64,000 nt of DNA. It comes from Hyphococcus sp. GTDB lineage: Bacteria > Pseudomonadota > Alphaproteobacteria > Caulobacterales > Parvularculaceae. The notes below the pieces were generated by a model. That model saw only the letters and a list, made by a program, of their open reading frames with translations, was not told the origin of the DNA and did no database searches. Each line of letters starts with the position of its first letter. Positions within the stretch are counted from its first letter, which is position 1. Of this stretch, positions 32,379-64,000 are shown one piece after another. The stretch lies in NCBI GenBank assembly GCA_021776415.1, contig JAJFFY010000050.1:1-64000 (forward strand), read 5' to 3'. A program made the position numbers and the translations under genes.

Positions 32379-32379
32379 G

Positions 32380-40706: not shown

Positions 40707-40734
40707 CACACGGCGTTGGAAAAGGAGCGCGCTC

Positions 40735-44170: not shown

Positions 44171-44257
44171 TGTCACCCTGCAGCCGCTAAAACCGGCTTG
44201 CAGATCATGCCCGGTCAAGCTATGACGCGGCCTCGCTGAAGGTCTGGGCATATTTGT

Positions 44258-44333: not shown

Positions 44334-44421
44334 CAAATATAAATTATATCAATAATATCAATGCGATAGACCCCCGCTATCACTGGCCTACATTTTGGAC
44401 CCACAAAATGGGCCCACAAAA

Positions 44422-48970: not shown

Positions 48971-48995
48971 AGCTGCCTGCTAATATGCTGAAATA

Positions 48996-49034
48996 AAAGG
49001 GTGTTTTTGAGTTTTAGGATCGAAAACACCCTTT
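48996..49034. terminator. bidirectional terminator between CRISPR array and cas2
   Basis: AAAGGGTGTTTT / AAAACACCCTTT stem. T-rich sequence follows on either strand (TTTGTTT rightward, TTTTATTT leftward). It would stop array transcription coming from the left and the cas operon coming from the right. Confidence 0.8.
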
Positions 49035-49040
49035 GTTTCA

Positions 49041-49388
49041 TCAAAACATCACCAATTGTTTGGGATTTTTTGGCGATTCGCCGCGCCGCCTTCCCCGTAA
49101 ACATACTATATTCTCATATTGCTTGTCAGTGAATTGTAAAATATCGACTTTTCCTTCGGGGGGCATCGCGGCCTCAACTTTGCGGGTAATCGCTTGTACC
49201 GCGTCTTTGCCATTTGTGTGTTTCACATAAACGGAATATTGCGCCATCTCAAAACCGTTATCGAGCAAGAAACTGCGAAACTGGGTATATTCACGCCGTT
49301 CCTGTGGCGATGTCGTTGGCAAGTCGAATAAGACCATAACCCACATAAATTTATACCCGCTGAAATGCGATAGAGCTTGCCGCGACAT
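49041..49388 (-). CDS. cas2: CRISPR-associated protein Cas2
   Basis: The 115-residue protein has a ferredoxin-like fold. MWVMVLFDLPTTSPQERREYTQFRSFLLDNGFEMAQYSVYVKH contains the conserved early Asp in FDLP and is typical of type II Cas2. The structural partner of Cas1 in spacer integration. A shorter start at the MWVM methionine is possible. It follows cas1 by 5 nt and ends just before the terminator. Confidence 0.95.
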   Translation of the reverse strand: MSRQALSHFSGYKFMWVMVLFDLPTTSPQERREYTQFRSFLLDNGFEMAQYSVYVKHTNGKDAVQAITRKVEAAMPPEGKVDILQFTDKQYENIVCLRGRRRGESPKNPKQLVMF

Positions 49389-49393
49389 CAGCG

Positions 49394-50317
49394 CTATCCT
49401 GACTGAGTTCGCATGAGAGGAAGTGGCGGGCCGGGCAAATCCAGGGCTTTGCGCTCACCTAAAAAAACCTGTGCAAGCGACTGTGCCATCCCATCCATGC
49501 AAATTTGCATTGGGCTAGCGCCCTGTGGTCCTTGGAGATCAAGTGTTAGAACGCCCACAAGAATAGCTTTGCGATCTTGATCGAGGTCAAATTTTTCCGA
49601 GGAATCCAGCTCATTAGCCAGGGTACGGACTTTATGGTCTACCCACGGACGAAATAACTCCATAAGGTCATCCGCAAGCCGCAAAGCATCACCGCGACTT
49701 TGATGTTGCAATGACAACGAAGGGTGTAGGCCCGCTGCCAGAATGGATCGTGCGGTAGCCGCGCGCAGAATCGTATAGCCGTAATTCAAGGCCGCATTGA
49801 CCCCATCTTGATCTCTGTCGCGCTTGAAATCATCGCCCATCAAACGTGGCCAGTATCGCCGGGCGGCTTGCGCCTCCAGATTTTCGCTATCGCCGGATTT
49901 TACCCGGAGCGCCATGGCGCGCAGATCGTCACAATCCAAGTTACAGGTTTCAAGAACATCCGCTTGCGCGCCAATCTTGGCCTTAATCAGTTGCGCCCAT
50001 AGCCGTTTTAATAGGGGTTTGTTGGAAACCGCCTGGGCTTGCATCCGCAAACCTTGAGAAAAATGTCCTGAGACAGGCCAAATAACCGACGCAGGTGATT
50101 GGTTCGCGCCGCAAATGACAATCGGAACATTCGCCTCGGACAGGCGCGTGCAGATATTGACCGACAGGCTTGCGCCATGACCGCGAATGATGAGCGCGGC
50201 CATATCGTCTATGGCGACCTGCCCCGCTTTCTCGCCATTAATCTTAACCGCTAAAAACCCGCGAGACACGCTTATATGCGCACCATCAGATGTGATCTCC
50301 ACTACACGGTTTTGCAT
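49394..50317 (-). CDS. cas1: CRISPR-associated endonuclease Cas1
   Basis: The 307-residue type II Cas1 is the integrase that inserts new spacers. The N-terminal beta-rich part (MQNRVVEITSDGAHISVSRGFLAVKIN) and AALIIRGHGASLSVNICTRLSEANVPIVICGANQSP are typical. ALNYGYTILRAATARSILAAGLHPSLSLQHQSRGD carries the metal-binding region. It lies between cas9 and cas2 in the standard II-C order cas9-cas1-cas2. No csn2 or cas4 is present, which supports subtype II-C. Confidence 0.96.
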   Translation of the reverse strand: MQNRVVEITSDGAHISVSRGFLAVKINGEKAGQVAIDDMAALIIRGHGASLSVNICTRLSEANVPIVICGANQSPASVIWPVSGHFSQGLRMQAQAVSNKPLLKRLWAQLIKAKIGAQADVLETCNLDCDDLRAMALRVKSGDSENLEAQAARRYWPRLMGDDFKRDRDQDGVNAALNYGYTILRAATARSILAAGLHPSLSLQHQSRGDALRLADDLMELFRPWVDHKVRTLANELDSSEKFDLDQDRKAILVGVLTLDLQGPQGASPMQICMDGMAQSLAQVFLGERKALDLPGPPLPLMRTQSG

Positions 50318-50374
50318 TTACTTCCCCATGAGTAGCTTAACACAGGGAAACGCAAGTTTTACGCCGTTATGTTC

Positions 50375-53300
50375 TTAGTATACTTTCAACACACCCGATG
50401 GGCTTACGGTAACGCTTCTGGCATTGGCTTTTTGGAGAGAACCTGGAGCCATTTGTATGGCTTTTAGCGCTTTTTCTCTAATGCGTGCGGAAGCATTGGC
50501 TTCAAAATGCTCAGACATCAAAATCATTCCGGTTGAGAATTTATACACCTGAACGATTTTCGTGTGACCTTCATGGTCTATTTGCACATAGTCGTCTTTA
50601 CGCAAGCGCATAACTAGCGTCTGCCCCTCACGGCCTTTCAGGCTACGCCACCATGCAACATTTTTTCGTGCTTTTTTAAGCTGATATGCTTCATAGGTCG
50701 AAATAACTTCTCCGGCCCATTTGCCACTTTCATTTGGCCAAATATCATAACAATAATTTCCGTCTCCCTTATAGGTTTTGTATTCCTTGCCTGATTTATC
50801 TTTAAACGGAATGACGCTCAATTTTTCTTCGATGCGTACTTTGTAAACAGGCGGCGTCATCGCCTTGGCCTCCATCAGCAAGGCGGCCTTAAAGTCTTTG
50901 CCCGACAATCCTTGAGTTACCTCTAGCAGGGCTTTCTTGATTGGTTCATCACGAATTTTTTCTAGGTCTTTTGACGCCTTAAAGCTATCGCTATCAAGCG
51001 GTTTACGAGTGACTACGGTTCTCACTCCCCGCTTGTCAGGCTCGCCCTCTTCGCCTTTGGTGATGCCGTAAGCGGTATCATTGTGCATGGCATCCTGGAT
51101 CCCGTGATCTGGTTTATGGCTGACGATAATATCCCGAACAGACGTTGCAACGTCATCGCGAAACCCGCCCCACGGCTCAGCAACTCCAGCCATTAATCGT
51201 TCATCGAACTTTTCTTCATTTTTCTTGGCTTGCTTGGCGGCCCCCTGAAGCATTCCAATGTCCGTGCAAGCCACAACAATGGCGTCAATCGCATGATGGC
51301 GGTGGTCGTGACGGTTTTTCTTTTGCGCCTCGGAAATCTCTTCGTTATGGCCGTGTAAAACACTATCGAGTCCCCACTGCCAGCGCAGATCAGCCGTTAG
51401 CCTTCCGGGAATAACCCAGACATTGCTGGCTTTTCCGCCTGGATAAACCGCACTCAGATAGCCCTTTGCAAGGCGTGAAATATACTGCGTATCAGTCAGT
51501 TGGCGGGCCAGAAATCCGCCTTCCTCTTTTTCGTAGCGCTCCATGGCGTCCGGCCCAAAGCGCCAGGTTTTATTGTCGGGGAGCTCCGCTGCGCGCTTTG
51601 AGATTTCTTCCCAATTGTAGCTGTCTGGAGAGTGTCCAAAAGCTTCGAAGGGCGTTTGATTCCCTTTGTCACGATTGGCCTGGCGCATAGACAGTGTTTT
51701 GTTAGAGTAACTGTCATCAAAGGTGCGCGAGAACGGCAGGATATGTTCAACCTCCACCTTGTCGGTGAACAAGTCGGAAAGCGGAATATGTTCTCCGGTA
51801 AATACGCAGCGCTTACCCAGCGCTTCCAGGTCCTCATATAATCGTAAGCGCATCCGGTTTTGATAGTTATCTGCAATGCTGCGCTCTAGCAGCATTTTGC
51901 GCCGGTTTTCATTCGCGTCCTGGTTTTGCTTGTGGCGCTTCTCCAGATCGCCTTTTCCTTTCGCCGACAAAGGAAGAGAACGCGCCAGTTCAATCACAAT
52001 CTGTTCCGGAGGGCCAAATCGTTTGAGCAAATCATTGACGACAGAACGAATTTGATTGAGCGCTACATGGACGGTCGGGTTGGCGATTTTACCGTAGCGT
52101 GTTTCGTCTAGGTCCTTGGGTTCGCCTGTTCCAAATGCAACATGGCGTTCAAGGATATAACCGTAATAAGGCAAGGCTTTATCAAAAACTTCGCCGGTTT
52201 CAAAATTGCTGTGACTGGAAAACCCGGCCAAAATAACGGCCTCAGAATAAATTGTAACGTCTGCTTCAAGGTATGGCTGGATTTTATCCAGGGCTAGCTT
52301 ACTCAGGCTGCCATATCCGGAGACAAGCGGACAATCGGCGACGCGAAAAGCCTGGTCTGCATCAAGTTTGTGAACATCTCGCAGATAGGCGACAAGTACA
52401 TCTTCTTTTTCCTCATTAATAAGACGATCAATAATTTCATCCTGGGTTTGAGGGTCAAGGTCAAACCAGCTATCACCCCAGCGATCTTTTTGCATCAGGC
52501 GAGCCGCCGTTGCGTCCCCTTGCAGGTCGGGGCGTTTGACACTTTCAGTGTTGAAAACAGTGCGGTCCGACAATTTCAGCAACGAGCGAATTTGCTTGAA
52601 GCTTACCTTGCCAGTTTTATTCGTCGGACGAAGGAGGCGCTCGGTAATTTTGTCACGTTGTTCTTTCGAGAGTGGTTTTTGCGCTTCACCGGGATAACCA
52701 ATGCGCAATGCGTTTACTTCCTGAAAAATACGCGACCTTTGAGACGATGGGAGGGCTTTAGCGGCGCGTTCTTCGGTCGGAATGAGCGTGCATTTACCAA
52801 CCGGCGGTGACTTAAGTGGGTGTTGCCATTCTATGGTGTCGCGCAGGCGGGTGCGCGCAGCGTCCGTCAATTCTTTAGGGTGATGGGTTTTTTGCATATC
52901 CCAGATAGCGTCAAACTCGTCCAGAATAAGCTCGCGCGTGGGGTAATAGTCATATTGCCATTTTGCGCCTTCACCAGATTTTCGAACCCGCGCTAGGGGT
53001 TGCGCTTGGCGCTCGCCTTTTTTCGCTGTCTGGTTATGTAAGGCAGCTTTCAATCGGCGGCGGCCAAAAAGCTCTCCTAACGTACGGGCATTTTCTGTTT
53101 TTAGCTCTTCCTTCGTACGCTGTGTTGCTTCATAGACTTTACCACTTTCACTATCGGCACGGTCGGTTTTACGGTTAGATTTAAAGCCCCGGCGTTGATG
53201 CAAATGAAAAATCGCGCGCCCCAATTGGTGTAGTGAAATCTCTTCATCCAACGCTCGGGCGCGCAATATCCATGGGTCAGTATCGGCCAGCGATACGCCT

Positions 53301-53602
53301 TTGCCGCCTTCCAGCGCTTTGCGGGCGGCCTCATCCTTCGGCATCAGGCCAAACTCTATCAACTCACGCATCAACCGCGCCCGGCGACGCAAATAACGAT
53401 CCCGGTTCTTGCGGGCTCCGCGCGGCTCTCGGCGTTTTACAGCGTTGGATTGCTTGTCTTTGGGGTTACGCCCATCGGAAAAAATACGAACCCCGCTATC
53501 TTTAAGGCCGACGGGACCCCAGGCTCCATCAATTTCCTTGAGCTTAAGAGCTGCCCAGCCGAGTGAATTTGTACCTAAATCAATGCCTAAGCGCCAAACC
53601 AT
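50375..53602 (-). CDS. cas9: type II-C CRISPR RNA-guided endonuclease Cas9
   Basis: The product has 1075 residues, a compact II-C length. RuvC-I Asp8 in LGIDLGTNSLGW; Arg-rich bridge helix around 56-80 (RREPRGARKNRDRYLRRRAR). RuvC-II Glu538 in IVIELARS; HNH His620 in VEVEHILPFSR, with the SNKTLSMRQANRDKGNQ helix; RuvC-III His770/Asp773 in HHAIDA. All nuclease residues are intact. The C-terminal part is the probable PAM-interacting region. The start is backed by a GAGAGG ribosome site 5 nt upstream. It is transcribed with cas1-cas2 and is divergent from the tracrRNA. The PAM cannot be read from sequence. Confidence 0.98.
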   Translation of the reverse strand: MVWRLGIDLGTNSLGWAALKLKEIDGAWGPVGLKDSGVRIFSDGRNPKDKQSNAVKRREPRGARKNRDRYLRRRARLMRELIEFGLMPKDEAARKALEGGKGVSLADTDPWILRARALDEEISLHQLGRAIFHLHQRRGFKSNRKTDRADSESGKVYEATQRTKEELKTENARTLGELFGRRRLKAALHNQTAKKGERQAQPLARVRKSGEGAKWQYDYYPTRELILDEFDAIWDMQKTHHPKELTDAARTRLRDTIEWQHPLKSPPVGKCTLIPTEERAAKALPSSQRSRIFQEVNALRIGYPGEAQKPLSKEQRDKITERLLRPTNKTGKVSFKQIRSLLKLSDRTVFNTESVKRPDLQGDATAARLMQKDRWGDSWFDLDPQTQDEIIDRLINEEKEDVLVAYLRDVHKLDADQAFRVADCPLVSGYGSLSKLALDKIQPYLEADVTIYSEAVILAGFSSHSNFETGEVFDKALPYYGYILERHVAFGTGEPKDLDETRYGKIANPTVHVALNQIRSVVNDLLKRFGPPEQIVIELARSLPLSAKGKGDLEKRHKQNQDANENRRKMLLERSIADNYQNRMRLRLYEDLEALGKRCVFTGEHIPLSDLFTDKVEVEHILPFSRTFDDSYSNKTLSMRQANRDKGNQTPFEAFGHSPDSYNWEEISKRAAELPDNKTWRFGPDAMERYEKEEGGFLARQLTDTQYISRLAKGYLSAVYPGGKASNVWVIPGRLTADLRWQWGLDSVLHGHNEEISEAQKKNRHDHRHHAIDAIVVACTDIGMLQGAAKQAKKNEEKFDERLMAGVAEPWGGFRDDVATSVRDIIVSHKPDHGIQDAMHNDTAYGITKGEEGEPDKRGVRTVVTRKPLDSDSFKASKDLEKIRDEPIKKALLEVTQGLSGKDFKAALLMEAKAMTPPVYKVRIEEKLSVIPFKDKSGKEYKTYKGDGNYCYDIWPNESGKWAGEVISTYEAYQLKKARKNVAWWRSLKGREGQTLVMRLRKDDYVQIDHEGHTKIVQVYKFSTGMILMSEHFEANASARIREKALKAIQMAPGSLQKANARSVTVSPSGVLKVY

Positions 53603-53630
53603 AATTGCCTCTCATCTAGCCATGACAGCT

Positions 53631-53658
53631 AGACTAAGCCTTGATTTAAGTATGTCAA
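53631..53658 (-). promoter_or_regulatory. cas9 promoter (minus strand), overlapping the tracrRNA promoter
   Basis: On the minus strand a perfect -35 TTGACA (53658-53653) and TAGTCT (53636-53631) are separated by 16 bp. It drives cas9-cas1-cas2. The tracrRNA promoter on the other strand occupies the same bases. Confidence 0.65.
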
Positions 53659-53669
53659 AAGCATAAAAT
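53641..53669 (+). promoter_or_regulatory. tracrRNA promoter
   Basis: TTGATT (53641-53646), a 17-bp spacer, and TAAAAT (53664-53669). It reads towards the anti-repeat; expected start near 53676. Confidence 0.7.
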
Positions 53670-53675
53670 GAAAGT

Positions 53676-53790
53676 GCATTTTAGCACTCTGGAAAAGGCG
53701 GGCTTTCCGTTAACAAGGACAATGTCCTTTTGGATAGTCCACAAAATGCTTTTAAAGGCAGCCAGCCCTTTGGGTCTGGTTGCCTTTATT
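53676..53790 (+). ncRNA. tracrRNA of the II-C CRISPR system
   Basis: The anti-repeat at 53680-53716 matches the reverse complement of the CRISPR repeat. TTTAGCACTCTGGAAAAG is identical over 18 nt, and most of the rest pairs with the repeat 5' end with wobbles and a small bulge. Next come an AAGGACAATGTCCTT hairpin and a GGATAGTCC hairpin. A terminal hairpin follows (AAAGGCA-CCAG...CTGG-TTGCCTTT, 53754-53787). About 115 nt in all. The order anti-repeat, nexus-like hairpin, terminator matches known II-C tracrRNAs. Confidence 0.88.
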
Positions 53791-53925
53791 AATTACGGGG
53801 GCTCATTTCATTGACCTGGCTCCCATTTTTTTCCAATTTGGCCTGGAAACTATCCCGCCGGGTAGGTAGCCAAAGAAAGTATTTCATCGAAAAATAATGA
53901 TGATGTGGAGCGCCAGAGATGGTAG

Positions 53926-54069
53926 CGCCTTACCTATGCAATCGACAGACTAAATAAGAAATTCGGCAAACGTGTTTTGTCAGTCGGGCCATGGGCGCCG
54001 CCGCCGGGCGGTTATGCCGGCGGCGAGATTTCTTATACGCGCATCCCTTCTGCGGAGGATTTCTGGTGA
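53926..54069 (+). pseudogene. C-terminal remnant of a Y-family (UmuC/DinB-like) DNA polymerase
   Basis: One frame between a stop at 53923 and TGA at 54067 encodes 47 residues: AIDRLNKKFGKRVLSVG, then PPPGGYAGGEISYTRIPSAEDFW. This resembles the little-finger tail of UmuC/DinP-type polymerases (AxDxLNxxFG... and FTRIPxxEEF). The polymerase and thumb domains are missing. It looks like the surviving end of a gene lost when the cas locus or island was assembled. The next small gene overlaps its stop (GTGA). Confidence 0.5.
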
Positions 54070-54320
54070 GCTGGCTCGATGACATGCATCTGGTTGATCT
54101 AGATGACAGTCAAGCCATCGAGGCAACCTGCATGAAATGCCTGCACACATGCTTACAAAGTCCGATCCAGTTGCTCCTTAAAGTCAATCACCGGGATGTA
54201 ATCATGGCTGAAATTGCCCGTGAGCTAAAATGCCGCCGCCCTCATTCTGGTCATTGCGGCGCTCGGCTTTTACTTGTCAGAAATGAGAATGCTAGAGGTT
54301 TTGTGGGCGGTATGCCGTAA
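54066..54320 (+). CDS. small Cys-rich protein following the polymerase remnant
   Basis: The 84-residue protein starts at a GTG overlapping the remnant stop. SWLDDMHLVDLDDSQ is a distinct N-terminal signature. CMKCLHTC and CRRPHSGHC provide zinc-finger-like Cys spacings. The family is not known to me. Translational coupling suggests it once formed an operon with the polymerase and may now be a leftover. Confidence 0.55.
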   Translation: MSWLDDMHLVDLDDSQAIEATCMKCLHTCLQSPIQLLLKVNHRDVIMAEIARELKCRRPHSGHCGARLLLVRNENARGFVGGMP

Positions 54321-54333
54321 GCAGAGGATGCCT

Positions 54334-54573
54334 TTAAGCGTCATTTGATACGGCGGCTAATATTCTTTGAGGATCAGTTTCAATCTGCTCACAAAGCTCG
54401 ATGAATTCGATGACATCCAAACGCCGTTCACCACCCTCAATTTTAGCAATATACGATTGTGGCTGTCCCAGCCGATCAGCTACCGTCTGTTGTGTCAAAT
54501 TTGCTTCCAACCGTGCATTAGTCAGCAATTCACACAGCAGCTCATGGCGCTCTGAATAGATGGATTTCGGCAT
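54334..54573 (-). CDS. XRE family HTH regulator
   Basis: The product has 79 residues from the ATG at 54573 ([10 protein letters not shown]). [43 protein letters not shown] is a textbook Cro/C1 HTH. Ten more codons upstream are less likely coding. It may control the island genes; convergent to the small Cys-rich gene. Confidence 0.85.
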
Positions 54574-54753
54574 ATTTGCGCTTCGACAAGTAAAACTTGC
54601 CAAAGCGCTAATCCGATATTAGAATTATCCCATATTAGGATATTTCCTGGCTAACTGGATGAAAATATAGAGAACAACTTGGGAGATATATGTTGGGAAA
54701 AGGTTGTTTCTTATCTCTCCATTTATGCTGTTGATTGTTCGGAGGGGGCTGTA

Positions 54754-55389
54754 ATGGCTAAGATAGTTGAATGCAAAACATGCGGTAAGGAGATTTCCTC
54801 CGGCGCTAAAAAGTGCCCGCATTGCGGACAAAAACGTGGAGGCATTGTTGGAAAAATCGTGATGTGGGCAATCGTTGGTGTTGTCGGGTTAGGCATAGCT
54901 ACTGCATTGTTGGGTGACCCGGACGATAGTTCAACCCGGGCCACTAAAGGTTCTCCTGCAAAACCAGAGACAATCTATTCTATTGGAGATAGCGTTAGGT
55001 CGGGTGACTTTTCCATCACAATAAATAATGTCTCAACGCGATCAAGCGTCGGTTCAAGCTTTATCGAGGAAGTGGCTGGTGACGGTGGAATATTTGTTGT
55101 TGTTAATTTTTCCTACCGCAATGAAACCCGCGAACCCGTAGGAGCATTTAGTGTTCCTGACATTGAACTACGTGATCCGCATGGCGTAAAATACAGTCAA
55201 GACATTGGTGCAAGCTCAAGTTATGCAACAGAACGTGATCTCAATACCAATGCTTTTTCTGACATAAATCCGGGCATTCAAGTCAATGATGCTTCTGTTT
55301 TTGAGGTCTCAAAATCGGCTTTTGAAATTGGCGGATGGACAGTGTACGTAGATAACGGAAGAAACGATTTTCAGGTCGTCATTCCTTAG
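54754..55389 (+). CDS. zinc-ribbon membrane protein with DUF4352-like domain
   Basis: The 211-residue protein starts at the ATG at 54754, with GGAGGGGG upstream. The zinc ribbon CKTCGKEISSGAKKCPHCGQK holds four Cys (8, 11, 22, 25). A membrane helix follows at about 31-53. The outer part IYSIGDSVRSGDFSITINNVSTRSS...FVVVNFSYRN resembles the DUF4352 Ig-like fold. Function unknown. It is 10 nt before the SH3-like gene and likely in one operon. AT-rich, as the rest of this end of the island. Confidence 0.8.
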   Translation: MAKIVECKTCGKEISSGAKKCPHCGQKRGGIVGKIVMWAIVGVVGLGIATALLGDPDDSSTRATKGSPAKPETIYSIGDSVRSGDFSITINNVSTRSSVGSSFIEEVAGDGGIFVVVNFSYRNETREPVGAFSVPDIELRDPHGVKYSQDIGASSSYATERDLNTNAFSDINPGIQVNDASVFEVSKSAFEIGGWTVYVDNGRNDFQVVIP

Positions 55390-55398
55390 GGCTTACTG

Positions 55399-56256
55399 TT
55401 GAATTTCATAGGGAAAATATTGCAAGAACGATTTTATGTTCTGATGTATTGGGTTGCTTTTCCTATTGCGTTCGCACTCCTCATTTTACCTGTTTCAGCA
55501 AAAGCAACAGCCGATGGGCCTGACTTTATGCAGGTAGACGTTGCTGCAAATGACGTTTTAAATGTACGGAGCAGGCCTGATCACAAAGCGCCAATAGTTG
55601 GTGAGCTTCATCGAGGCGAGAAAGTGCGCGTTCTAGACGAAGCTGAAAATGGTTGGCAGTTTGTGACAAACGAGCGCGCGACAGGCTGGGTGAACGGGCG
55701 TTATTTGGTCGAATACATCGCAACAGTTAAACCTGCAAGCGACCCAGATCTACATGCGGAATCGGATCTGGCACATAGATTTCGTAGTGTTGGCGAGAAT
55801 GATTGGAATGTAATTGAGAATCCTGATCCGTTTTCAGATGAGCGCTTAATTCTAAAAGGCGAGCTGAAGGAAGGTGACGGTAGAATTGATATTAGAGCAT
55901 TTTGTACTGTGAGCTTATTCCAAACACCGGCAATTCGTCTTGAGCTTGTAGCGCTTCGGGCGTCTGGCCTTCGAAGGCCCTTTAAAACGAAGCTGGAGCT
56001 GAATGAATTTATTGGTGAGTATATGGAATATACTAGAGTTCAAGTTCGAACCGCACGAGGTAAAATTCGTTCTTCAGAATTCGTGATTGGCGACTACCCA
56101 AACGAAGTCACAATTGTTATCGGAACCGACATTTTCAACCCAGCAGAGTTACCGATATTGGTTGGATTGGAATTTATCGATGCCCGAGGTAGCATTGAAA
56201 TCCCGAACAACTCTGTCGTCTCATCATTCAGTTCAGAATGTGATCAGCAAAATTAA
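55399..56256 (+). CDS. exported SH3-domain protein
   Basis: The 285-residue protein has a TTG start and a membrane/signal segment (YVLMYWVAFPIAFALLILPVSAKA). An SH3b module follows at about 45-110 (VLNVRSRPDHKAPIVGELHRGEKVRVLDEAENGWQFVTNERATGWVNGRYL). The C-terminal about 150 residues are beta-rich and unrecognised. Bacterial SH3 domains often bind cell-wall peptides; the role here is unknown. Paired with the DUF4352-like gene. Confidence 0.8.
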   Translation: MNFIGKILQERFYVLMYWVAFPIAFALLILPVSAKATADGPDFMQVDVAANDVLNVRSRPDHKAPIVGELHRGEKVRVLDEAENGWQFVTNERATGWVNGRYLVEYIATVKPASDPDLHAESDLAHRFRSVGENDWNVIENPDPFSDERLILKGELKEGDGRIDIRAFCTVSLFQTPAIRLELVALRASGLRRPFKTKLELNEFIGEYMEYTRVQVRTARGKIRSSEFVIGDYPNEVTIVIGTDIFNPAELPILVGLEFIDARGSIEIPNNSVVSSFSSECDQQN

Positions 56257-56460
56257 CTCGATCGTCTATGATTGAAAGAATCCAAGTTGATCAGCTTCCC
56301 GAAACATTAGGCATTGAAGGCTCGAGATATCCGCTATAACTTCCTTGGTACAAACTGAGCGTAGCATCAACAGCATGACTCTCGTTTTGAATGAAGGAAT
56401 CAAAAGGCATAAGTAAATTAATTTTCAACAATAAGATATTCATGATTGGGAGATTTTGGT

Positions 56461-56802
56461 ATGGATATTTTTGAACAACTCTGGACTAGTGCTACAAGTC
56501 GGGAAATTATACTTCTACTGATTGGATTTTTATCTGGCATTGTTATTGTGAGGTGGCGGATCGAAATCAAGAAACCAATCGTCAAGTCGCAATTGGACAA
56601 AGCGCAAACCCGTTCTACTCAAGATATGCATGAGCTTCGTAAAATAGTCTCGCGTTTGGAAAAGCGGCTTTCGATTTTTAATGCGGAGTTTAATGAGTTC
56701 AAACAGGAAATTGAAGAGATTGAAATATATCAGCACGTGCCTAATATCATTGGTGACGCAAAGCATGACGTATCAAAATTGCGTGATGATGTTTCTCAAT
56801 AA
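56461..56802 (+). CDS. small membrane-anchored coiled-coil protein
   Basis: The product has 113 residues from the ATG at 56461. The N-terminal helix SREIILLLIGFLSGIVIV is a membrane anchor. The rest is a charged coiled coil (LRKIVSRLEKRLSIFNAEFNEFKQEIEEIEIYQ) followed by a polar end. GGGAGATTTTGGT upstream offers a ribosome site. I do not recognise the family. The gap 56257-56460 contains no gene I can support. Confidence 0.65.
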   Translation: MDIFEQLWTSATSREIILLLIGFLSGIVIVRWRIEIKKPIVKSQLDKAQTRSTQDMHELRKIVSRLEKRLSIFNAEFNEFKQEIEEIEIYQHVPNIIGDAKHDVSKLRDDVSQ

Positions 56803-57653
56803 TTGAGTGACGTGCTTCACATGTCCTGGACCAATTGAAGCTGGAATTTTCCAATCATAGCCCGTTGGATAGGTGAATGAGTAATTCGAACGGTAGATTA
56901 ATAAGAATTGATTCTGGTCTATATAGGTCCCTATTAAAAACCAAATCTTCAACATGACTCTAATCCAATTAATGATATCAAAACTAAAGAAACGGCGTTA
57001 GCCGTAAACTTGCGAAGCAAGTTTTTAATGGACATTTTCTGAATCATAGCATCTATAAAAATATTATTATTATGTGTGTCTGGATTTCAAAGTGAAGTTA
57101 GAATTTTTTGAAATCCAATTTACTTGATGTGAACTAGAATTATTACAGTCGCTTTGCTCCTGTAATCTCATTCGCTTCGCTCATTCGTTTTCTATAAATG
57201 ATTGAATCTGGGTGTCTGAATGGGTAGTTTTGGACACACTTTTCCTTCCGCCAGGAAAAGTGTTCCGAAAATACCTGAATGGTATAGCCCCATCACACAC
57301 CATAAGAACAACCCCAAAGGGGAAACGGCGGTTTGCCGGTCTCGTTTTATGTTCCACTTTATTCAAACGGAACCATTAAAGGTGCTATGGTGTGACGACC
57401 CTTCAATGGTGGAGGTTGGCTTTTTCTCAGAGCCTCCATCGTGCTTCAAACGCATGCGCGCTTATCTGCTCTTTTACGCTTTGGTGTAAGTTTTTCTTTT
57501 GGCACCCTTTCTGAAATCCGGCTCAATTTCGACGAAGTTACCTTCGCTGCCTCGACAGATTTGGGTCGCACTCACAACCTATTTAAATTACTTACTGTAC
57601 TTATTTATACAAATAGAACTCGCTAAGCGATATTTTCAAAAAAATATTTTAAA
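56803..57653. other. gene-poor AT-rich stretch with small inverted repeats
   Basis: I see no convincing gene in these 850 bases; frames of 60-89 codons lack ribosome sites and protein-like composition. Inverted repeats stand out: ACGGC/GCCGT with AAACTTGC/GCAAGTTT plus T5 (56992-57028, terminator-like), ATTACAG/CTGTAAT (57142-57166), and ACACTTTTCC/GGAAAAGTGT (57236-57263). Several repeat loops contain GCTTCGC- or CGAAGC-like cores. It may be degraded mobile DNA. Confidence 0.55.
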
Positions 57654-57905
57654 TCATTTTGGAGTCACCCAGTTTCGTGCCTTCACAAATTGCTGAATAT
57701 CTTTTTGGCTGTATATTCGCCCCGTTTCCTTCACGGCTCCAAACTTTTGCCTCCATAATCCTCTATAACGTTTTGTTTCTTTTATTTTGCGCGCCCTCAC
57801 GGGGTTTTCAGCTGATTTATCAAAGCTCTCAAGATTTTGCTGGCGCTTTTGTAACTTCATTTCTCTTATCCAAGCTTCAAAGGATTTTTCGTTTGTTGTC
57901 GTCAT
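57654..57905 (-). CDS. small basic hypothetical protein next to the excisionase
   Basis: The product has 83 residues from the ATG at 57905, with GGAAAATT before it. It is charged and basic (FEAWIREMKLQKRQQNLESFDKSAENPVRARKIKETKRYRG), with a hydrophobic-poor end. Not recognised. It follows the AlpA-like gene on the same strand and is probably cotranscribed, as in many integrative elements. Confidence 0.55.
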   Translation of the reverse strand: MTTTNEKSFEAWIREMKLQKRQQNLESFDKSAENPVRARKIKETKRYRGLWRQKFGAVKETGRIYSQKDIQQFVKARNWVTPK

Positions 57906-57983
57906 TAATTTTCCTTGTAGCATGAGAATGAAAGCTAATCTTGCTCTCAAGACTGGTTTGTTATGCTGGCATGCCCAGGATGG

Positions 57984-58178
57984 TTAACCCTGGTATCTGT
58001 CAATTGAATAACCGGTATGTTGCGTTGCCCACTCAAAAACATCTTGTTCGCGGTAAAGGACTTGCCTACCGCACTTTAGATATGGTGGGCCTGTGCCATT
58101 GCGTCGAAGCCTATATAATGTTGTTCGTGAGACCTTCAGCTTTTTGCTGAGGTCTAAAATCGATAAGTAGTTTAGCAT
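57984..58178 (-). CDS. AlpA-like excisionase / MerR-type HTH protein
   Basis: The 64-residue protein has a winged HTH: LSILDLSKKLKVSRTTLYRLRRNGTGPPYLKCGRQVLYREQDVFEWATQ. This is the AlpA/excisionase pattern (HTH_17). Such proteins serve as recombination directionality factors and activate excision of islands. Its position near the right att copy, opposite the integrase at the left, supports this. 1 of 2 genes in its operon. Confidence 0.85.
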   Translation of the reverse strand: MLNYLSILDLSKKLKVSRTTLYRLRRNGTGPPYLKCGRQVLYREQDVFEWATQHTGYSIDRYQG

Positions 58179-58495
58179 CTAATATTTTTAATTGTGGTTT
58201 TGAGCTGCACATCTAGAAGCCGATCGAAACACGCTCTTATATCTATTTATACAAACGCCTCGGCAAAATTGGTGATTCTCGAAATTTTTTTGGATTTATT
58301 TTTAATTTGCTTCGGAAGTGTCCGAATTTGGACAGGCGATAGTGCTTTAGAGTAACGCCAAGAGCGTTATCCATTTAGGTGCGTAAATTACCCCTAAAGG
58401 GTGCCACAAAATATTGTTTTGTTCGAACGCTTGAAATTGAAAATATTGTTCTATATCATAAGGTTATGCACCAAATAGAGTTTCGATATATACTG

Positions 58496-58519
58496 TGTTC
58501 GAGTCACCTATGCGCACCA
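58496..58519 (+). repeat. right att-like direct repeat
   Basis: TGTTCGAGTCACCTATGCG is identical to the tRNA-Thr 3' end at 44309-44327, followed by CACCA after loss of one G. It marks the probable right end of the island. The stretch 58179-58495 contains no gene I can support; it holds the AlpA promoter region. Confidence 0.8.
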
Positions 58520-58629
58520 GTGCAGAATTTTTTAACATCCACACTCATCCAATAACAAAGCAATAACAATACACTAAGTGTACTTTTCGTCTTATGCCAT
58601 CCAAACACGTCCTTTAAGGTTGGGGGTAT

Positions 58630-58671
58630 TTGGGGGTATTCATGATTCCTCAAATTGGCGATACCCCCAAA
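58630..58671. repeat. inverted repeat TTGGGGGTAT / ATACCCCCAA upstream of the P4-type integrase remnant
   Basis: TTGGGGGTAT (58630-58639; also a preceding partial copy) pairs with ATACCCCCAA at 58661. Such G-tract repeats are found at the tRNA-proximal ends of P4-like elements. Confidence 0.5.
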
Positions 58672-59045
58672 ATGCTATCTGCTCTTCAAATCAAGAACGC
58701 ACCGCCCAAGAAGAAGCCATACAAGCTTTCGGATGGCGGTGGTCCCCACCTTCTGATCAGCCCTAAAGGCTCGAAGTTGTGGCGTCTCAAATATCGTTAT
58801 CTCGGTAAGGAAAAGCTTCTGTCGTTGGACGTTATCCAGACCTCAGTCTTGCAAAAGCAAGGAAGGCGCGAGAATCCGCACGGGAAATGATTGCAGAAGG
58901 GCTGGACCCCGGCGCGGAAAAGAAGAGAACGCGAGAAAACCAGCTGCGTGAACGTGAGCAGACCTTTGAGTGGTTGGCGTGCAATTATCCTGAAAAGCAG
59001 GCAAGGGAGGGCCGGGCGCCATCAACCCTCAAGAAAAATCGCTGG
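58672..59045 (+). pseudogene. P4-type tyrosine integrase remnant, frameshifted and truncated
   Basis: MLSALQIKNAPPKKKPYKLSDGGGPHLLISPKGSKLWRLKYRYLGKEKLLSL is the DUF4102 N-terminus of P4-like integrases. The frame then breaks near 58826: read one base off, LAKARKARESAREMIAEGLDP continues the protein. It stops making sense after STLKKNRW, so the catalytic domain is gone. It lies directly right of the second att copy and is the trace of another element. Confidence 0.85.
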
Positions 59046-59200
59046 GTCGTACGGCAGGGTAATTTCTGGGCTTCAGTTTCACGGCAGTTAGTTTTCCGTT
59101 GCGCGGGTTTGCAACATCATCGGGATTTTTTCTGTGCGATTAACGATGAAGATTATTGCGAATTGAGTATTCCGTGAGAAATCTGGACCTAAATTGAGCG

Positions 59201-59962
59201 CTACCATTTGTTGAGGAGTGCGCGTTCTTCATCAGCATCGAGTGGTTCATCTAAAATGAGGCCGTCAACAAACTCATCAAATTGGGCGTTGAAGCCAGCG
59301 GATGCGGTAGAATAGCCGCCACTGCTTACATTTTTTGCAGGCACAAGAGCGACAAGCTGGATTTCCCAGGTTGTTGTTTTGCGGCAGGCCACTGCACGGC
59401 TTGTCATTTCGTGCTGCGTCACTGTGAACTCCCGGCAATAATCGTCATTTATGGACATAAATGTCAGTGACGGCGTAATCGCGGCATCGTTTGTGGCATT
59501 GATAATATATGTATCAAGGCTCGCGACTTTCTCAAGCGCATGATGAAGAGGACTGGTTTTATCAATAACGCCAGCAGCCAGAATCTTGTCACGTTGTATG
59601 GTTGTGCTTTTCGACGTGATTTGCATACCCAAACCAAGCCCAACAACAAGCATCATGGATGCAGCGATTGGCATCGCCCACTGCTGCGCTGCTTTTGGCA
59701 GGTGATGAAATGGAAAGAGCGCGATATTTTCTGGGCGCTCATCTGTATCTGTTGATTCAAGCATATCAAGCACGGCCTGTGGCATAGGCGTCTTGTCAAT
59801 GTCGCTATAGGCGGCGACGATCAAATGGTTAGAGTTTTTTAGTTGCTCAACCCTTCTCGCAAGCATGGCATCTTGTTGAAGCGCCTGGCTAATCATGTCC
59901 AATTCACTATCAGCCAATTCACCATCGATATAAGCAGAGAGTTTTGCGTCCGTAATCGTCAT
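59201..59962 (-). CDS. anti-sigma factor, membrane-anchored
   Basis: The 253-residue protein has a cytoplasmic N-terminal anti-sigma domain: ITDAKLSAYIDGELADSELDMISQAL and ARRVEQLKNSNHLIVAAY, as in the RskA/anti-ECF class. A membrane helix (AMPIAASMMLVVGLGLGMQI) follows at about 92-112, then an exported domain to 253. No zinc motif (HxxxCxxC) is visible. It starts 2 nt after the sigma gene on the same transcript. It probably holds the sigma factor inactive until a signal leads to its release or cleavage. Confidence 0.88.
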   Translation of the reverse strand: MTITDAKLSAYIDGELADSELDMISQALQQDAMLARRVEQLKNSNHLIVAAYSDIDKTPMPQAVLDMLESTDTDERPENIALFPFHHLPKAAQQWAMPIAASMMLVVGLGLGMQITSKSTTIQRDKILAAGVIDKTSPLHHALEKVASLDTYIINATNDAAITPSLTFMSINDDYCREFTVTQHEMTSRAVACRKTTTWEIQLVALVPAKNVSSGGYSTASAGFNAQFDEFVDGLILDEPLDADEERALLNKW

Positions 59963-59964
59963 GA

Positions 59965-60495
59965 TTAGGCTCCAATAGCCGCATTAGTTTCAATACCGGC
60001 GCCCTTCGCGCCAAGTGTTTTAATCAGTGCTTTGCGAGCCCTGGCGATACGGCTCATGATGGTGCCGATTGGCGCGCCCAGCGCCTGCGCTGCTTCTGCG
60101 TAGGAAAAGCCCTCAAGCGCCACGAGTGATAATGCAGCGCGCTGCTCATCGGGCAACTCACCCATTGCTTTATTAACTTCGTTGAAGGCTATCTTATCCA
60201 TCATCATTTGTTCTCCATCGACCTTTTCTTCGCCGCCAATCTTGCCGCTTTCGACCGCCGCAACCCGTACTTTTCGCGACCGTATCTCGTCGATCCAGAT
60301 ATTTTTGCACACACGAAACGCCCATTTTCCCAAATTCACATCATCGGGCGCACCCTTCTTCAATATGCGTTCAACCGTCGCCTGTAGTAAGTCATCGGCG
60401 TCAGCGCGAGCGCCCGTAAGCGCATACGCATATCGGCGTAACCGCGGCAATAGCTCGACAATTCCTTGACGCAACGCGTCCGTTTTCATCGACAT
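59965..60495 (-). CDS. ECF RNA polymerase sigma factor
   Basis: The 176-residue sigma-70 family member shows region 2 (LLPRLRRYAYALTGARADADDLLQATVERILKK, LGKWAFRVCKNIWIDEIRSRKVR) and region 4 (LPDEQRAALSLVALEGFSYAEAAQALGAPIGTIMSRIARARKAL). There is no region 3. Either ATG at 60495 or 60489 could start it. Its promoter at 60506-60532 has the same motif as the divergent protease gene, so it is probably autoregulated. Confidence 0.95.
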   Translation of the reverse strand: MSMKTDALRQGIVELLPRLRRYAYALTGARADADDLLQATVERILKKGAPDDVNLGKWAFRVCKNIWIDEIRSRKVRVAAVESGKIGGEEKVDGEQMMMDKIAFNEVNKAMGELPDEQRAALSLVALEGFSYAEAAQALGAPIGTIMSRIARARKALIKTLGAKGAGIETNAAIGA

Positions 60496-60505
60496 TCACC
60501 CTGTT

Positions 60506-60532
60506 GACGTGCTGGGTCTCGAAATTATTCCC
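60506..60532 (-). promoter_or_regulatory. ECF promoter of the sigma gene (GGGAATA-N16-CGTC)
   Basis: On the minus strand GGGAATA (60532-60526), 16 bp, CGTC (60509-60506). The start site would fall within a few bases of the sigma ATG, giving a nearly leaderless mRNA. The matching plus-strand promoter begins 8 bp away. Confidence 0.75.
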
Positions 60533-60540
60533 TAAAATGT

Positions 60541-60567
60541 GGGAATTTTCACGGCTTTCGAAACGTC
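60541..60567 (+). promoter_or_regulatory. ECF promoter of the protease gene (GGGAATT-N16-CGTC)
   Basis: GGGAATT (60541-60547), exactly 16 bp, CGTC (60564-60567). Expected start near 60574, about 43 nt before the protease ATG. Confidence 0.75.
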
Positions 60568-60616
60568 ACCTTTACGATGTCGTATGATAGACTCAATTGG
60601 TTAAATTTGGTGAGAT

Positions 60617-62959
60617 ATGTTCAGCTTGTGTAATAGACGCCCCACACACAAACGATCGGTTCCGTTACTTATGCCCCGGCAATTTTTATATATCCTATGC
60701 TTCCTGGCGGCGGCGTTTCCAGTCATTGGCTTGCCAATCGCTGGTTCGCCCGGCGCCGCGATGGCCAAGTCAGGATCTGGCAGTGAAGGCACGCCAGAAG
60801 ACGATATCGAGGGCGACATTGAAGATGATGTTGAAGAGAGAATCGAAGAGGAACTGGAAGACAGTGTCGAAACTGATATTGAGGATAGTGTTGAGGATGA
60901 CGTTGAGGACAGTGTCGAAGACGATATTGAGGATAGTGTAGAAGATAGCGTCGAGGACAGCGTCGAAGACGACGTTGAGGACAGCGTTGAAGACGATGTT
61001 GAGGATAGCGTTGAAGATGACGTCGAGGACAGCGTTGAAGACGATGTTGAGGATAGCGTTGAAGATGATGTCGAAGACAATGTTGAAGATGATGTTGAGA
61101 ATAGTGTTGAAGACAACGTTGAAGGCGGTGTCGAAGATAGGGTGGATAACAAGGTCAGCGATAACATTGACACGAAGATCGACGACAATAGTGGATCTGG
61201 GAACGCGAGTGATCGTGATGTCGAAGATGAGATTGATGATAAGATCAGTTCGGAAGTCGGCGACCAAAGTGATGCCAGCGAAAGTTTAGGCGATATTTTT
61301 GATGAGGCTAAAGCTCTCGCGGAAGCGGAACGTGACACTGTGCGCATTGCAGCAGACGCGGAGCGAGATGCGGCGCGGGCCGCAGCCAAATTTGCCCGTG
61401 ATGAAGCATTGGCAGCGCCAAATGCTGATGTGGAGGCGATCGAAGCAGAATATGATTTGTCGAAAGAGGCTGCAGATGAGGGTCGCGATGCTGCGCATGA
61501 ATCGGCTGATGAGACCTTAGCGATCACACTATTATCTATTAGCGCTGAAGAGGAAATGCTTGAGGGCGACGATGAGGAATCGTCTGGTTCAGGATCTTCA
61601 AATTCAGACAGTAGCGACGATGAAGATGAAGATCAGGAAGACGATTCAGGATCTGGATCAACGAATTCGGGCTCTGGTAATAGTAATGACGACGATGACG
61701 ACGACGAAGATGACGATGAAGAAAATTCCGGCTCCGAAAATGGTGATGACGAGGGCGACGAAGACGAAGGTGAAGATGATGAGGATGAGGACAATTCGGA
61801 ATCCGGATCTTCAAATTCGGGGTCCGGCAATAGCGGATCTTCTCAATCACTAAACGACAGAATATTCTCTGTCGCCCTTGACGAAAGCGGCAATGAGATA
61901 GAACGCGGCGAATGGCTAATGCTAGCGCCTTCAGATGCTCTAGAAGAGTTGAGAGCACAAGGATTTTCTACAACAGAAATAGAAAAGCTGGATGGGCTTA
62001 ATCTTGTGCTCGCGCGCATAGAAGCCTCTGATGGTTACAGCCTTAACGAAGCAGAGGCGATTGTTCGGGACGCAACATTAGGCGCTGAGGTCGACTATAA
62101 TCATATCTATTACAAACATCATTATACGCCTGGATCGAAACGAATCCGAAAAGGCCGTCATGGCGCAGTGCCGACGGATTTATTTGAAATGCCGGAAGCT
62201 GACGGCGGTAAGGGGCGCTCAATTGGGATTATCGATACGAATGTGGATGTAACCCACGGAACGCTCAAGAATGCTAATATTCAGGTCGGAGATTTTGTGC
62301 CTTATGCACATACGCGACCCGAAACCCATGGGACCACTGTCGTATCTATCCTGGCCGGTGACAGCGAGACATATCATGGCTTGCTGCCAAAGGCTGATAT
62401 TTACGCCGCATCCGTGTTTTTCAATTCTCCAACCGGGTCCGAAGCGGCAACCACGATGAGTTTGGTTCGTGCACTCGATTGGATGACAAAAAACAACGTG
62501 CCTGTTGTTAATATGAGCCTTACAGGCCCGGAAAATGCGATTTTAAAAAGCGCCATCGATCATGCCTACGAAAAAGGGACAATTGTTGTCGCCGCCGTTG
62601 GCAATGACGGCCCAACGGCGCCGCCGCTTTATCCGGCCGCCTATGACAATGTCATCGCCGTCACCGCGGTCACAAAGAAAATGAAGATATACCGCCTCGC
62701 CAACCGTGGTGAGCATGTGGATTTTGCAGCCCCTGGCGTTAATGTTCAGCATGCATTGGATCATGGCGAGTTTGCAGCATCCTCAGGCACATCCATCGCC
62801 GCGCCCTTTGTCAGCGCGCTATTGTCTCTTTACACAGATGAGAACGGGCATATCAGCGATGTGCGACTTAATGACCTAACGGCGAATGCGGTTGACCTTG
62901 GTCGCAAAGGGTTTGATCCTATTTATGGGAATGGCTTGATCAGGCCGATTGACGATTAA
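60617..62959 (+). CDS. secreted S8 (subtilisin) serine peptidase with acidic repeat domain
   Basis: The 780-residue protein has an N-terminal signal/anchor (about 20-45; Met19 at 60671 is an alternative start). Residues 55-200 repeat EDSVEDDV-type octapeptides many times. Helical Ala/Glu/Arg sequence follows (AERDTVRIAADAERDAARAAAK), then Asp/Ser/Gly-rich runs to 415. The subtilase domain occupies about 530-775: Asp540 in IIDTNVDVTHG, His571 in ETHGTTVVSILAG, Asn663 in GNDGP, Ser726 in SSGTSIAAPFV. The triad is intact. It faces the ECF sigma gene and carries the same promoter motif, so it is a probable regulon member; it could cleave the anti-sigma or an exported substrate (speculation). Confidence 0.92.
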   Translation: MFSLCNRRPTHKRSVPLLMPRQFLYILCFLAAAFPVIGLPIAGSPGAAMAKSGSGSEGTPEDDIEGDIEDDVEERIEEELEDSVETDIEDSVEDDVEDSVEDDIEDSVEDSVEDSVEDDVEDSVEDDVEDSVEDDVEDSVEDDVEDSVEDDVEDNVEDDVENSVEDNVEGGVEDRVDNKVSDNIDTKIDDNSGSGNASDRDVEDEIDDKISSEVGDQSDASESLGDIFDEAKALAEAERDTVRIAADAERDAARAAAKFARDEALAAPNADVEAIEAEYDLSKEAADEGRDAAHESADETLAITLLSISAEEEMLEGDDEESSGSGSSNSDSSDDEDEDQEDDSGSGSTNSGSGNSNDDDDDDEDDDEENSGSENGDDEGDEDEGEDDEDEDNSESGSSNSGSGNSGSSQSLNDRIFSVALDESGNEIERGEWLMLAPSDALEELRAQGFSTTEIEKLDGLNLVLARIEASDGYSLNEAEAIVRDATLGAEVDYNHIYYKHHYTPGSKRIRKGRHGAVPTDLFEMPEADGGKGRSIGIIDTNVDVTHGTLKNANIQVGDFVPYAHTRPETHGTTVVSILAGDSETYHGLLPKADIYAASVFFNSPTGSEAATTMSLVRALDWMTKNNVPVVNMSLTGPENAILKSAIDHAYEKGTIVVAAVGNDGPTAPPLYPAAYDNVIAVTAVTKKMKIYRLANRGEHVDFAAPGVNVQHALDHGEFAASSGTSIAAPFVSALLSLYTDENGHISDVRLNDLTANAVDLGRKGFDPIYGNGLIRPIDD
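60820..61140 (+). repeat. tandem 24-bp repeats encoding EDSVEDDV octapeptides
   Basis: GAGGACAGCGTTGAAGACGATGTT-like units recur about a dozen times with synonymous changes, encoding EDSVEDDV (also EDSVEDDI, EDNVEDDV). They lie inside the S8 peptidase gene and make a very acidic domain. Confidence 0.85.
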
Positions 62960-63113
62960 ACTGCCCATATTTATAGCATTTTACTGGCGGAAATGACCTT
63001 GCAGATAGTCATGCTGGGTATCTGAAGAAAACTGCCACAGCACTCATTTCGCTGCTCAATATTACATTTTATTTACTGTAATCAAACTGCTCACAAAATA
63101 AAAAGATTCTTCT

Positions 63114-63140
63114 GGGAATATATCGCGTCCTTGAGCCGTC
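63114..63140 (+). promoter_or_regulatory. ECF promoter of the last gene (GGGAATA-N16-CGTC)
   Basis: GGGAATA (63114-63120), 16 bp, CGTC (63137-63140), 35 nt before the ATG at 63175. Same sequence and spacing as the sigma-gene promoter at 60506-60532. The gap 62960-63113 contains no gene I can support. Confidence 0.75.
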
Positions 63141-63174
63141 ACCATCAAGAACCGCCCACCATAGGAGAATTTGT

Positions 63175-64000
63175 ATGGGTACCGCGAAAATATATGCTTC
63201 TGCTTTAGCCATTGCGGCTGTCCTAGGCTGGTCTGGCCTGGCAAACGCCGCCCCAGCCAATACGGCTTCAGGCGCAACCGGTCTCCAATTAGCAATGCTG
63301 CTTCAATCGAGCGCCGACCCAAGCGACGATGACATTGGATTAGATGGCCTCAAGCGCCGCGGTGACGGCACCATTGATGACGACCAGCCGGGTCAAGATG
63401 ATATAGACGATGACATTGGTCCCGATGGCCTCAAGCGCCGCGGTGACGGCACTATTGATGACGATCAGCCAGGCTCGGATGATGATGATCGCGACGACAC
63501 AGCAGATACTGATGACGATGATGATCGTCGCGGCCGCGGCAGAGGTCGTCGCGGAGAATCGGTAGATGACGACGATGGTGAACATCGCGGCCGTGGACGC
63601 GGAAGAGGTCGGGGCCGGGGTCACGACGGCGATGACGCTGCTCGCGATGAGGCTCGCGAAGCAGAACGTGCTGCAAAAGATGCTGAAAAATCCGCACGAC
63701 GTGAGGCCAAGCAGGCTGAAAAAGAAGCCCGCAAGGAAGCCCGAGAAGCTGAAAAAGAGGCAAAGGAAGCCGCTGACGAAGCTGAAGAAGCCGCCAAAGA
63801 AGCTGCTGACGAAGCTGAAGAGGCTGCCGAGGAAGCCGCTGAAGAAGCTGAAGAAGCTGCCAAGGAAGCTGCTGAAGAAGCTGAAGAAGCTGCCGAAGAG
63901 GCCGCTGATGAAGCCAGAGAAGCAGCTAAGGAAGCTGCGGATGAAGCTGAAGAAGCCGCCAAGGAAGCCGCTGACGAAGCTGAAGAAGCGGCTAAAGAAG
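63175..64000 (+). CDS. exported low-complexity acidic/Ala-Glu repeat protein (3' end outside window)
   Basis: GGAG lies 9 nt before the ATG. At least 275 residues, open at the window end. A signal peptide (IYASALAIAAVLGWSGLANA, cut before APANT) is clear. Next are two copies of a unit containing DDDIGxDGLKRRGDGTIDDDQ, Asp-runs, Arg/Gly tracts (RGRGRGRRGES, GRGRGRGRGRG), then a long helical array of AEEAAKEAADE heptad-like units. No catalytic domain is visible in the part present. It shares the ECF promoter motif with the sigma and protease genes. It may be an extracellular structural, mineral-binding or cell-surface protein; a protease substrate is a guess. Confidence 0.85.
   Translation, partial: MGTAKIYASALAIAAVLGWSGLANAAPANTASGATGLQLAMLLQSSADPSDDDIGLDGLKRRGDGTIDDDQPGQDDIDDDIGPDGLKRRGDGTIDDDQPGSDDDDRDDTADTDDDDDRRGRGRGRRGESVDDDDGEHRGRGRGRGRGRGHDGDDAARDEAREAERAAKDAEKSARREAKQAEKEARKEAREAEKEAKEAADEAEEAAKEAADEAEEAAEEAAEEAEEAAKEAAEEAEEAAEEAADEAREAAKEAADEAEEAAKEAADEAEEAAKE

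Follow-up and report, generated by a model that had tools for sequence, protein, structure and literature searches.

A conserved ECF26-type promoter motif suggests one sigma/anti-sigma switch for an exported pro-subtilase and a repeat protein with an outer-membrane barrel in Hyphococcus sp.

The first 64,000 nucleotides of contig JAJFFY010000050.1 of Hyphococcus sp. (assembly GCA_021776415.1; Alphaproteobacteria, Parvularculaceae), hereafter the window, end within a gene cassette in which copies of one promoter motif precede an extracytoplasmic function (ECF) sigma factor with its anti-sigma factor, an exported peptidase of family S8, and an exported repeat protein (the partner) followed by an outer-membrane barrel. 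The reading that we regard as rather probable is that an ECF26-type sigma/anti-sigma switch controls its own synthesis together with that of an exported zymogen protease and of two components at the outer membrane, the repeat protein and the barrel. The sigma–protease half of this system is known, whereas the attachment of partner and barrel, a four-residue repeat, a pair of cysteines as a candidate sensor and the island setting are new here.

In the window the motif GGGAATW-N16-CGTC occurs exactly three times, always with a 16-nt spacer, whereas dinucleotide shuffles contain 0.05 copies on average and none of 100 reaches three. GGGAATA-N16-CGTC lies on the minus strand at 60506–60532, before the sigma/anti-sigma operon, GGGAATT-N16-CGTC on the plus strand at 60541–60567, before the S8 protease gene, and a third match on the plus strand at 63114–63140, before the repeat-protein/barrel operon; the two divergent sites are separated by 8 bp (60533–60540). 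A preliminary description of the window had reported these copies and this gap, and both proved exact. The genome-wide search that it had proposed, carried out on the genome's own assembly (G000; 3.31 Mb in 100 contigs, 85% complete), returned six matches, as against none for the reversed pattern; two of the three lying outside the window are within open frames and probably due to chance (L001, L002), and the third is intergenic (L006).

The regulatory interpretation is adopted because the motif recurs at the orthologous sigma, S8 and partner promoters. With GGAAT-N16/17-CGT[CT] as the test pattern and a first-order Markov model providing the expectation, a site was found within 150 bp upstream of the sigma gene in 28 of 30 loci (0.07 expected), within 250 bp upstream of the divergent S8 gene in 19 of 20 (0.10 expected) and within 200 bp upstream of the partner gene in nine of 14 (0.05 expected), the rows not being independent since many of the species are related. 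The loci bearing the motif span Alphaproteobacteria and Gammaproteobacteria, and in G031, in which the partner-barrel operon is on a separate contig, GGAATAAAGCGTCGGGGTCACACGTC is found 38 bp before the partner gene. Of the 29 loci with both genes, the S8 test covered 20; the nine left out comprise five in which the two genes are not divergent and four divergent ones without a fixed S8 start, and when longer stretches of the latter were scanned a site directed towards S8 was found within stretches of 0.99–2.6 kb in L092, G062 and, as a poorer one, L073, and none in G060. Five weaker sigma–S8 loci without a barrel (L050, L051, L053, L054 and L055), kept outside all these counts, have the motif on both sides in L054, on the sigma side in L053 and on neither side in the other three. 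The three copies in the window are, by this comparison, very probably parts of one regulon under the ECF factor, and the earlier proposal that a single self-activated ECF factor drives both protease and repeat protein gains support from the orthologous promoters as well as from a mapped protease promoter of Sinorhizobium meliloti.

In that organism RpoE6 and EcfR6 are encoded divergently from SMa0142, a serine protease, and this gene arrangement is described as widely conserved in ECF26 (PMC6180224); overexpression of RpoE6 raised SMa0142 by 4.7 (as log fold change) and ecfR6 by 3.6, and the mapped SMa0142 promoter contains GGGAATA-N15-CGTT, the spacer having been counted here from the printed sequence. 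The same text gives the ECF26 promoter consensus as a −35 element GGAATA and a −10 element containing GT, and states that the role of RpoE6 could not be defined from microarray data (PMC6180224). The window promoters conform to this consensus, and a serine protease gene is divergent from the sigma gene here too. In S. meliloti strain LMB1 the gene order is S8 family serine peptidase, sigma factor, anti-sigma factor, and its neighbours suggest that this is the rpoE6 locus. The two systems share the divergent sigma and S8 genes, an adjacent anti-sigma gene with the same pair of cysteines and autogenous expression of the anti-sigma factor; they differ in that the S. meliloti protease has 467 amino acids, in that the spacer of its promoter is 15 instead of 16 nt and in that neither a barrel nor a repeat protein is annotated in the 12.4 kb inspected at the LMB1 locus, for which the gene table is incomplete. 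The sigma factor of the window very probably belongs to ECF26, an assignment made by comparison with this rpoE6-type locus. The preliminary description had not recognized a known system in the pairing of a secreted protease with a secreted acidic repeat protein under one ECF factor; an ECF26 sigma gene divergent from a serine protease gene has, however, already been described (PMC6180224).

The sigma factor (176 amino acids; 59965–60495, minus strand) has the ECF architecture, consisting only of regions 2 and 4 (Sigma70_r2 and Sigma70_r4_2); its residues 27–168 are 41.9% identical to the sigma factor of the S. meliloti rpoE6-type locus, and its best NCBIfam model, PRK12511, remains below the cut-off (128 versus 185). 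Behind it lies a gene overlooked in the preliminary description, that of the anti-sigma factor (253 amino acids; 59201–59962, minus strand), whose N-terminus resembles zf-HC2/RseA_N below the gathering score and is followed by a single hydrophobic stretch and by a C-terminal domain that we assign to the periplasm; here, as throughout this work, signal peptides and membrane spans were judged by eye. The protein aligns with the EcfR6-type protein of S. meliloti, and its gene adjoins that of the sigma factor. A pair of cysteines in the C-terminal domain is present in all 23 aligned anti-sigma proteins, that of S. meliloti included; a function of this pair as a disulfide-type sensor is conceivable, at somewhat less than even likelihood.

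The S8 protein (780 amino acids; 60617–62959, plus strand) is a pro-subtilase composed of a putative signal peptide, a region of tetrad repeats, a helical hairpin, an acidic Ser/Gly linker, an I9-like prodomain and the S8 domain. The latter (residues 531–773; 62207–62935, plus strand; Peptidase_S8, E 2.2e-37) has the catalytic Asp, His, Asn and Ser all in place when the alignment is inspected by eye, so that the earlier designation of the protein as “exported, low-complexity” fits only in part, the low complexity being confined to the N-terminal part of a protein with an intact catalytic domain. The closest match of the S8 model in the Protein Data Bank is the unprocessed pro-subtilisin E (3whi), and the I9-like prodomain (residues about 427–499; 61895–62113, plus strand), which displays the order beta-alpha-beta-beta-alpha-beta in the model, was assigned through the model and structure match and not through Pfam; the Mycosin model TIGR03921 scores below its curated cut-off (128 versus 278.75). 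As in pro-subtilisins, the fold of prodomain and catalytic domain and the catalytic residues are present; unlike them, the window protease has about 400 additional residues N-terminal to the prodomain, in which repeats, hairpin and linker are contained. In the tetrad region (residues 64–188; 60806–61180, plus strand) every fourth position, 32 of 32 in succession, is V, I or L, whereas no more than eight were reached in any of 2000 shuffles; no Pfam model matches the region at E 0.1. Runs of 21–67 repeats occur in 18 of the 21 proteases examined, and the runs are short in G032 (9), G030 (5) and Luminiphilus (6). The four-residue repeat may represent an undescribed protein architecture; since it precedes the prodomain, it would be cut off together with the latter if processing were subtilisin-like. 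In the AlphaFold model the two helices at residues 224–319 have mostly a pLDDT above 90.

The repeat protein (341 amino acids; from 63175 on the plus strand beyond the window edge at 64000 to position 64200 of contig C45) consists of 11-residue Ala/Glu repeats with a Fourier period of 3.68 and is followed after 90 nt by the gene of a barrel of 311 amino acids (C45:64291–65226). The preliminary description had overlooked this gene, placed just outside the window edge, as well as the extension of the repeat-protein frame past it. Tetrad runs of 6 to 44 repeats are found in 11 of 14 partners and 11-residue repeats (period 3.66–3.68), like those of the window's own, in the other three; the period of the tetrad runs is 4.00, and helix is modelled at low confidence. 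For a co-assembly of protease and partner the nearest analogue in function would be tetrabrachion of Staphylothermus marinus, a right-handed helical stalk of 11-residue repeats on which a protease of the subtilisin family, STABLE, is held (PMC5744192); tetrabrachion belongs to an archaeal S-layer. As to the barrel, BBP2_2 is above the gathering score (32.0 versus 23.7) and so is OMP_b-brl; the model has 14 strands at a mean pLDDT of 84, and the solved structures closest to it are those of CymA porins, while OmpG appears within the 50 best matches. The strand number is shared with these barrels, although the TM-scores to CymA and OmpG are just about 0.5–0.6. A Slam-type exporter was rejected as candidate in view of a weak SlipAM similarity (E 0.0016; 18.5 versus a gathering score of 22), and the window protein, at 311 amino acids, is a barrel alone. 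A search for the barrel on plasmids gave no match, and none of the papers listed by searches of an open-licence library dealt with this repeat-protein/barrel cassette. In the gaps between partner and barrel genes (e.g., L007:6201–6290, L042, L043 and L047) GC-rich inverted repeats of varying sequence were noticed by eye; these are perhaps transcript-stability hairpins.

A protein search with the sigma factor gave matches at E 1e-15 in 37 of 60 other genomes, and the neighbourhoods were fetched for 20 of these 37. Nearby S8 genes accompany all nine top-scoring relatives (at least 118 bits; L041–L049) and nearby barrels eight of them, the barrel of the ninth (G031) being on another contig. Among the weaker relatives, the five loci listed above have sigma and S8 genes with no barrel in the stretch, and their proteases display no long repeats in the N-terminal parts inspected; L052 has the sigma gene and no S8 match before the contig end. 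When six of the weaker-sigma genomes were searched whole, a barrel was found only in G013, unlinked. Conversely, when genome contigs were scanned with an alignment of the barrel, 33 loci were obtained, whose fetched flanks contain sigma in 26, S8 in 27 and both in 25. These loci belong to Parvularculaceae, Marinicaulis, Robiginitomaculum, a Kordiimonadaceae bacterium and others, and to the Halieaceae Parahaliea, Seongchinamella, Pseudohalioglobus, Luminiphilus and HTCC2148. The gene order varies, all genes being on one strand in L074 and L075 and the barrel standing behind the anti-sigma gene in L076, L077, L082 and L084, and at many loci S8 and barrel are convergent. Within the family the barrel is present in 17 of 62 genomes, always as a single copy, which amounts to a patchy spread.

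As proposed here, a periplasmic signal would act on the cysteine-bearing domain of the anti-sigma factor and set the sigma factor free, and the latter would amplify its own synthesis and turn on the two exported units. The protease would be exported as a zymogen and be kept by its tetrad region next to partner rod and barrel, either at the outer membrane or on the cell surface, until the catalytic domain is released or armed by self-cleavage behind the I9 domain. Several findings weigh against this picture. With regard to regulation, the motif is absent before the sigma gene in G003 and G060 and before the S8 gene in G003, five of the 14 partners (G029, L068, L069, G060 and G013) have no motif upstream, and none of the five non-divergent S8 genes (L074, L075, L076, L077 and L082) is preceded by one, some of the stretches scanned being short (246 nt in L082); furthermore, the mapped rpoE6 promoter itself is RpoD/RpoH-like and unlike that of the window (PMC6180224). 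With regard to the gene set, G041 and G043, the genomes of two of the five weaker loci, have a sigma factor of 46% identity and S8 yet no barrel, and seven of the 33 barrel loci have no sigma gene in the fetched stretch. With regard to the proteins, the barrel model resembles general porins of 14 strands, the helix modelled for the tetrad region has a pLDDT of only about 52, and the partners of the window, G006 and G031 have 11-residue repeats and not tetrads. Finally, the acid contents of protease and partner repeats are correlated (Pearson 0.87, n=10), but the Spearman coefficient is 0.17 when G003 and G060 are removed; matched repeat charge was accordingly rejected as proof of contact between the two and, because the correlation collapses in this way, their co-assembly is advanced as possible though doubtful. 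A more ambitious version, in which a family of tetrad-repeat rods common to pro-subtilase and partner is assembled at or through a dedicated 14-stranded barrel, so that a mobile cassette with its own ECF26 redox-type switch would encode a protease-bearing surface device, appears to us quite unlikely.

Three other explanations deserve consideration. That the copies of the motif in the window are the product of chance or of recent duplication, and not one regulon, might be thought of a pattern so short, of which the genome has three further exact copies, two within open frames; yet it is conserved across two classes at orthologous promoters whose spacers differ in sequence, and a counterpart is mapped in S. 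meliloti (PMC6180224), which makes this explanation extremely improbable. A greater challenge to the zymogen-and-barrel reading is the possibility that the S8 enzyme acts on its own anti-sigma factor, as site-1 protease or as amplifier, in a positive feedback of which repeat protein and barrel would be merely further targets. The proximity of S8 to sigma even where no barrel is near, as in the five weaker loci and in S. meliloti, is consistent with such a feedback, and so are the divergent promoters that link the two genes to one switch; on the other hand, that role would call for neither long rods of tetrads nor acidic linkers nor a barrel in the outer membrane, and the weaker sigma relatives L056–L060 have no S8 relative in the stretch. 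Moreover, DegS-type site-1 proteases are not known to be induced zymogens with long pro-regions. On these grounds a feedback protease is considered rather unlikely.

The remaining alternative is one of envelope quality control, without any assembly: the protease would degrade damaged or misfolded envelope proteins, the acidic repeats would be disordered and cation-binding or osmoprotective, and the barrel would be a general porin. The very acidic character of the low-complexity regions, the 11-residue Ala/Glu repeats of the window partner and the resemblance of the barrel to general porins all agree with this explanation. Against it stands the hydrophobic phase-locking over 21–67 repeats in 18 of 21 proteases, low-acidity G003 and G060 included, an indication that the region is structural and more than simply charged, and we hold this explanation, too, to be fairly improbable. 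The switch that controls itself, the zymogen protease and the partner with its barrel is the reading retained.

The cassette, about 6.2 kb long, occupies 59191–64000 of the window and continues to its right edge at C45:65351. Over this block (59191–65351) the sequence is 89–90% identical to that of the sister genome G006. To the left, the window is largely colinear with G006 from 30313 to 44334, up to a tRNA-Thr gene (44258–44333, plus strand) that ends this stretch in both genomes and marks the start of a variable region; between it and the block there are 14.9 kb in Hyphococcus sp. (44335–59190) and 2.8 kb in G006, without mutual similarity, while to the right the last 1.5 kb of the contig have no similarity to G006. 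Because of these sharp edges in a tRNA-anchored variable region, together with the patchy spread over two classes, the block is on balance held to be mobile. An opposing point is its position behind the same tRNA-Thr gene in both genomes; with the site common to the two, a recent transfer between them does not follow. Near the left edge an integrase remnant comprising Arm-DNA-bind_3 only is present (58630–58890, plus strand), and in G032 a single gene separates the barrel from a phage-type integrase gene with an open frame and a tRNA-Met gene, both about 1 kb away. A terminator-like hairpin of 15 pairs (C45:65312–65344) fits the right edge of the block, such hairpins being no commoner than in shuffles. 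The stretch 44335–59190 behind the tRNA-Thr gene has the appearance of an integration hot spot adjoining the cassette, and to the right of the latter, at the contig end (L007:8256–8897), there begins a further repetitive protein, which has a hydrophobic stretch at its N-terminus and repeats like ALARHPQAFQAMA.

As to the extent of the regulon, ten genomes searched for the motif contain 1–8 sites each, versus 0–5 for the reversed pattern. Of 31 loci inspected, a part of all matches, six are those of the cassette and 21 of the other 25 sit in open frames of at least 100 amino acids; since most sites outside the cassette are so placed, a wider regulon was rejected and no large one is claimed. The intergenic copy of the genome (G000:C80:87337–87363) has counterparts with a 15-nt spacer in G026 and G019 (L107 and L147), and in all three genomes it points antisense into a gene for a multihaem cytochrome c; the surrounding stretch was matched in just one of 39 other genomes searched (G019), and neither G006 nor G009, both having the sigma gene, gave a match. 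A conserved stretch around AGACTCAA-N-GTTAA-TTTGGTGAG follows the −10 element and precedes the start codon of the S8 gene (window 60567–60616; sigma–S8 intergenic regions of L042 and L043) and is common to G000, G009 and G026. A scan for promoters and terminators gave matches not above those of shuffles (4 versus 5.2 and 2 versus 5.3).

In the Halieaceae an additional copy of the motif precedes a conserved structured RNA, probably non-coding, that is found on the minus strand beyond the anti-sigma gene (at about 14.2–14.7 kb in L080, L081, L085, L087, L088 and L089 and at 5.4–5.7 kb in L086). Compensatory changes affect five of 25 predicted pairs in eight rows, two of which are from the same genome. 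A covariance model finds the RNA once in each of eight gammaproteobacterial genomes, seven of them donors of the sequences, and in neither of two alphaproteobacterial ones; in the eighth genome, that of L083, where it was found without use of the motif, the motif is upstream as well. None of the four carrier loci compared with Rfam (L080, L085, L087 and L089) gave a match at gathering, and L088 gave only a weak one on the opposite strand (E 0.4). A counterpart in the genome of the window was rejected, the one weak match (E 0.046) being in a stretch that reads, by eye, as coding.

These findings suggest what an ECF26 switch may control in marine bacteria, in many of which the motif is conserved: in addition to the protease, a repeat protein that is exported and a barrel of the outer membrane. 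The invariant pair of cysteines of the anti-sigma factor, a candidate sensor, provides a direct handle on the signal. Finally, because the gene set recurs in Alphaproteobacteria and Gammaproteobacteria, including named Halieaceae such as Parahaliea, Seongchinamella and Luminiphilus, the role of the protease becomes testable.

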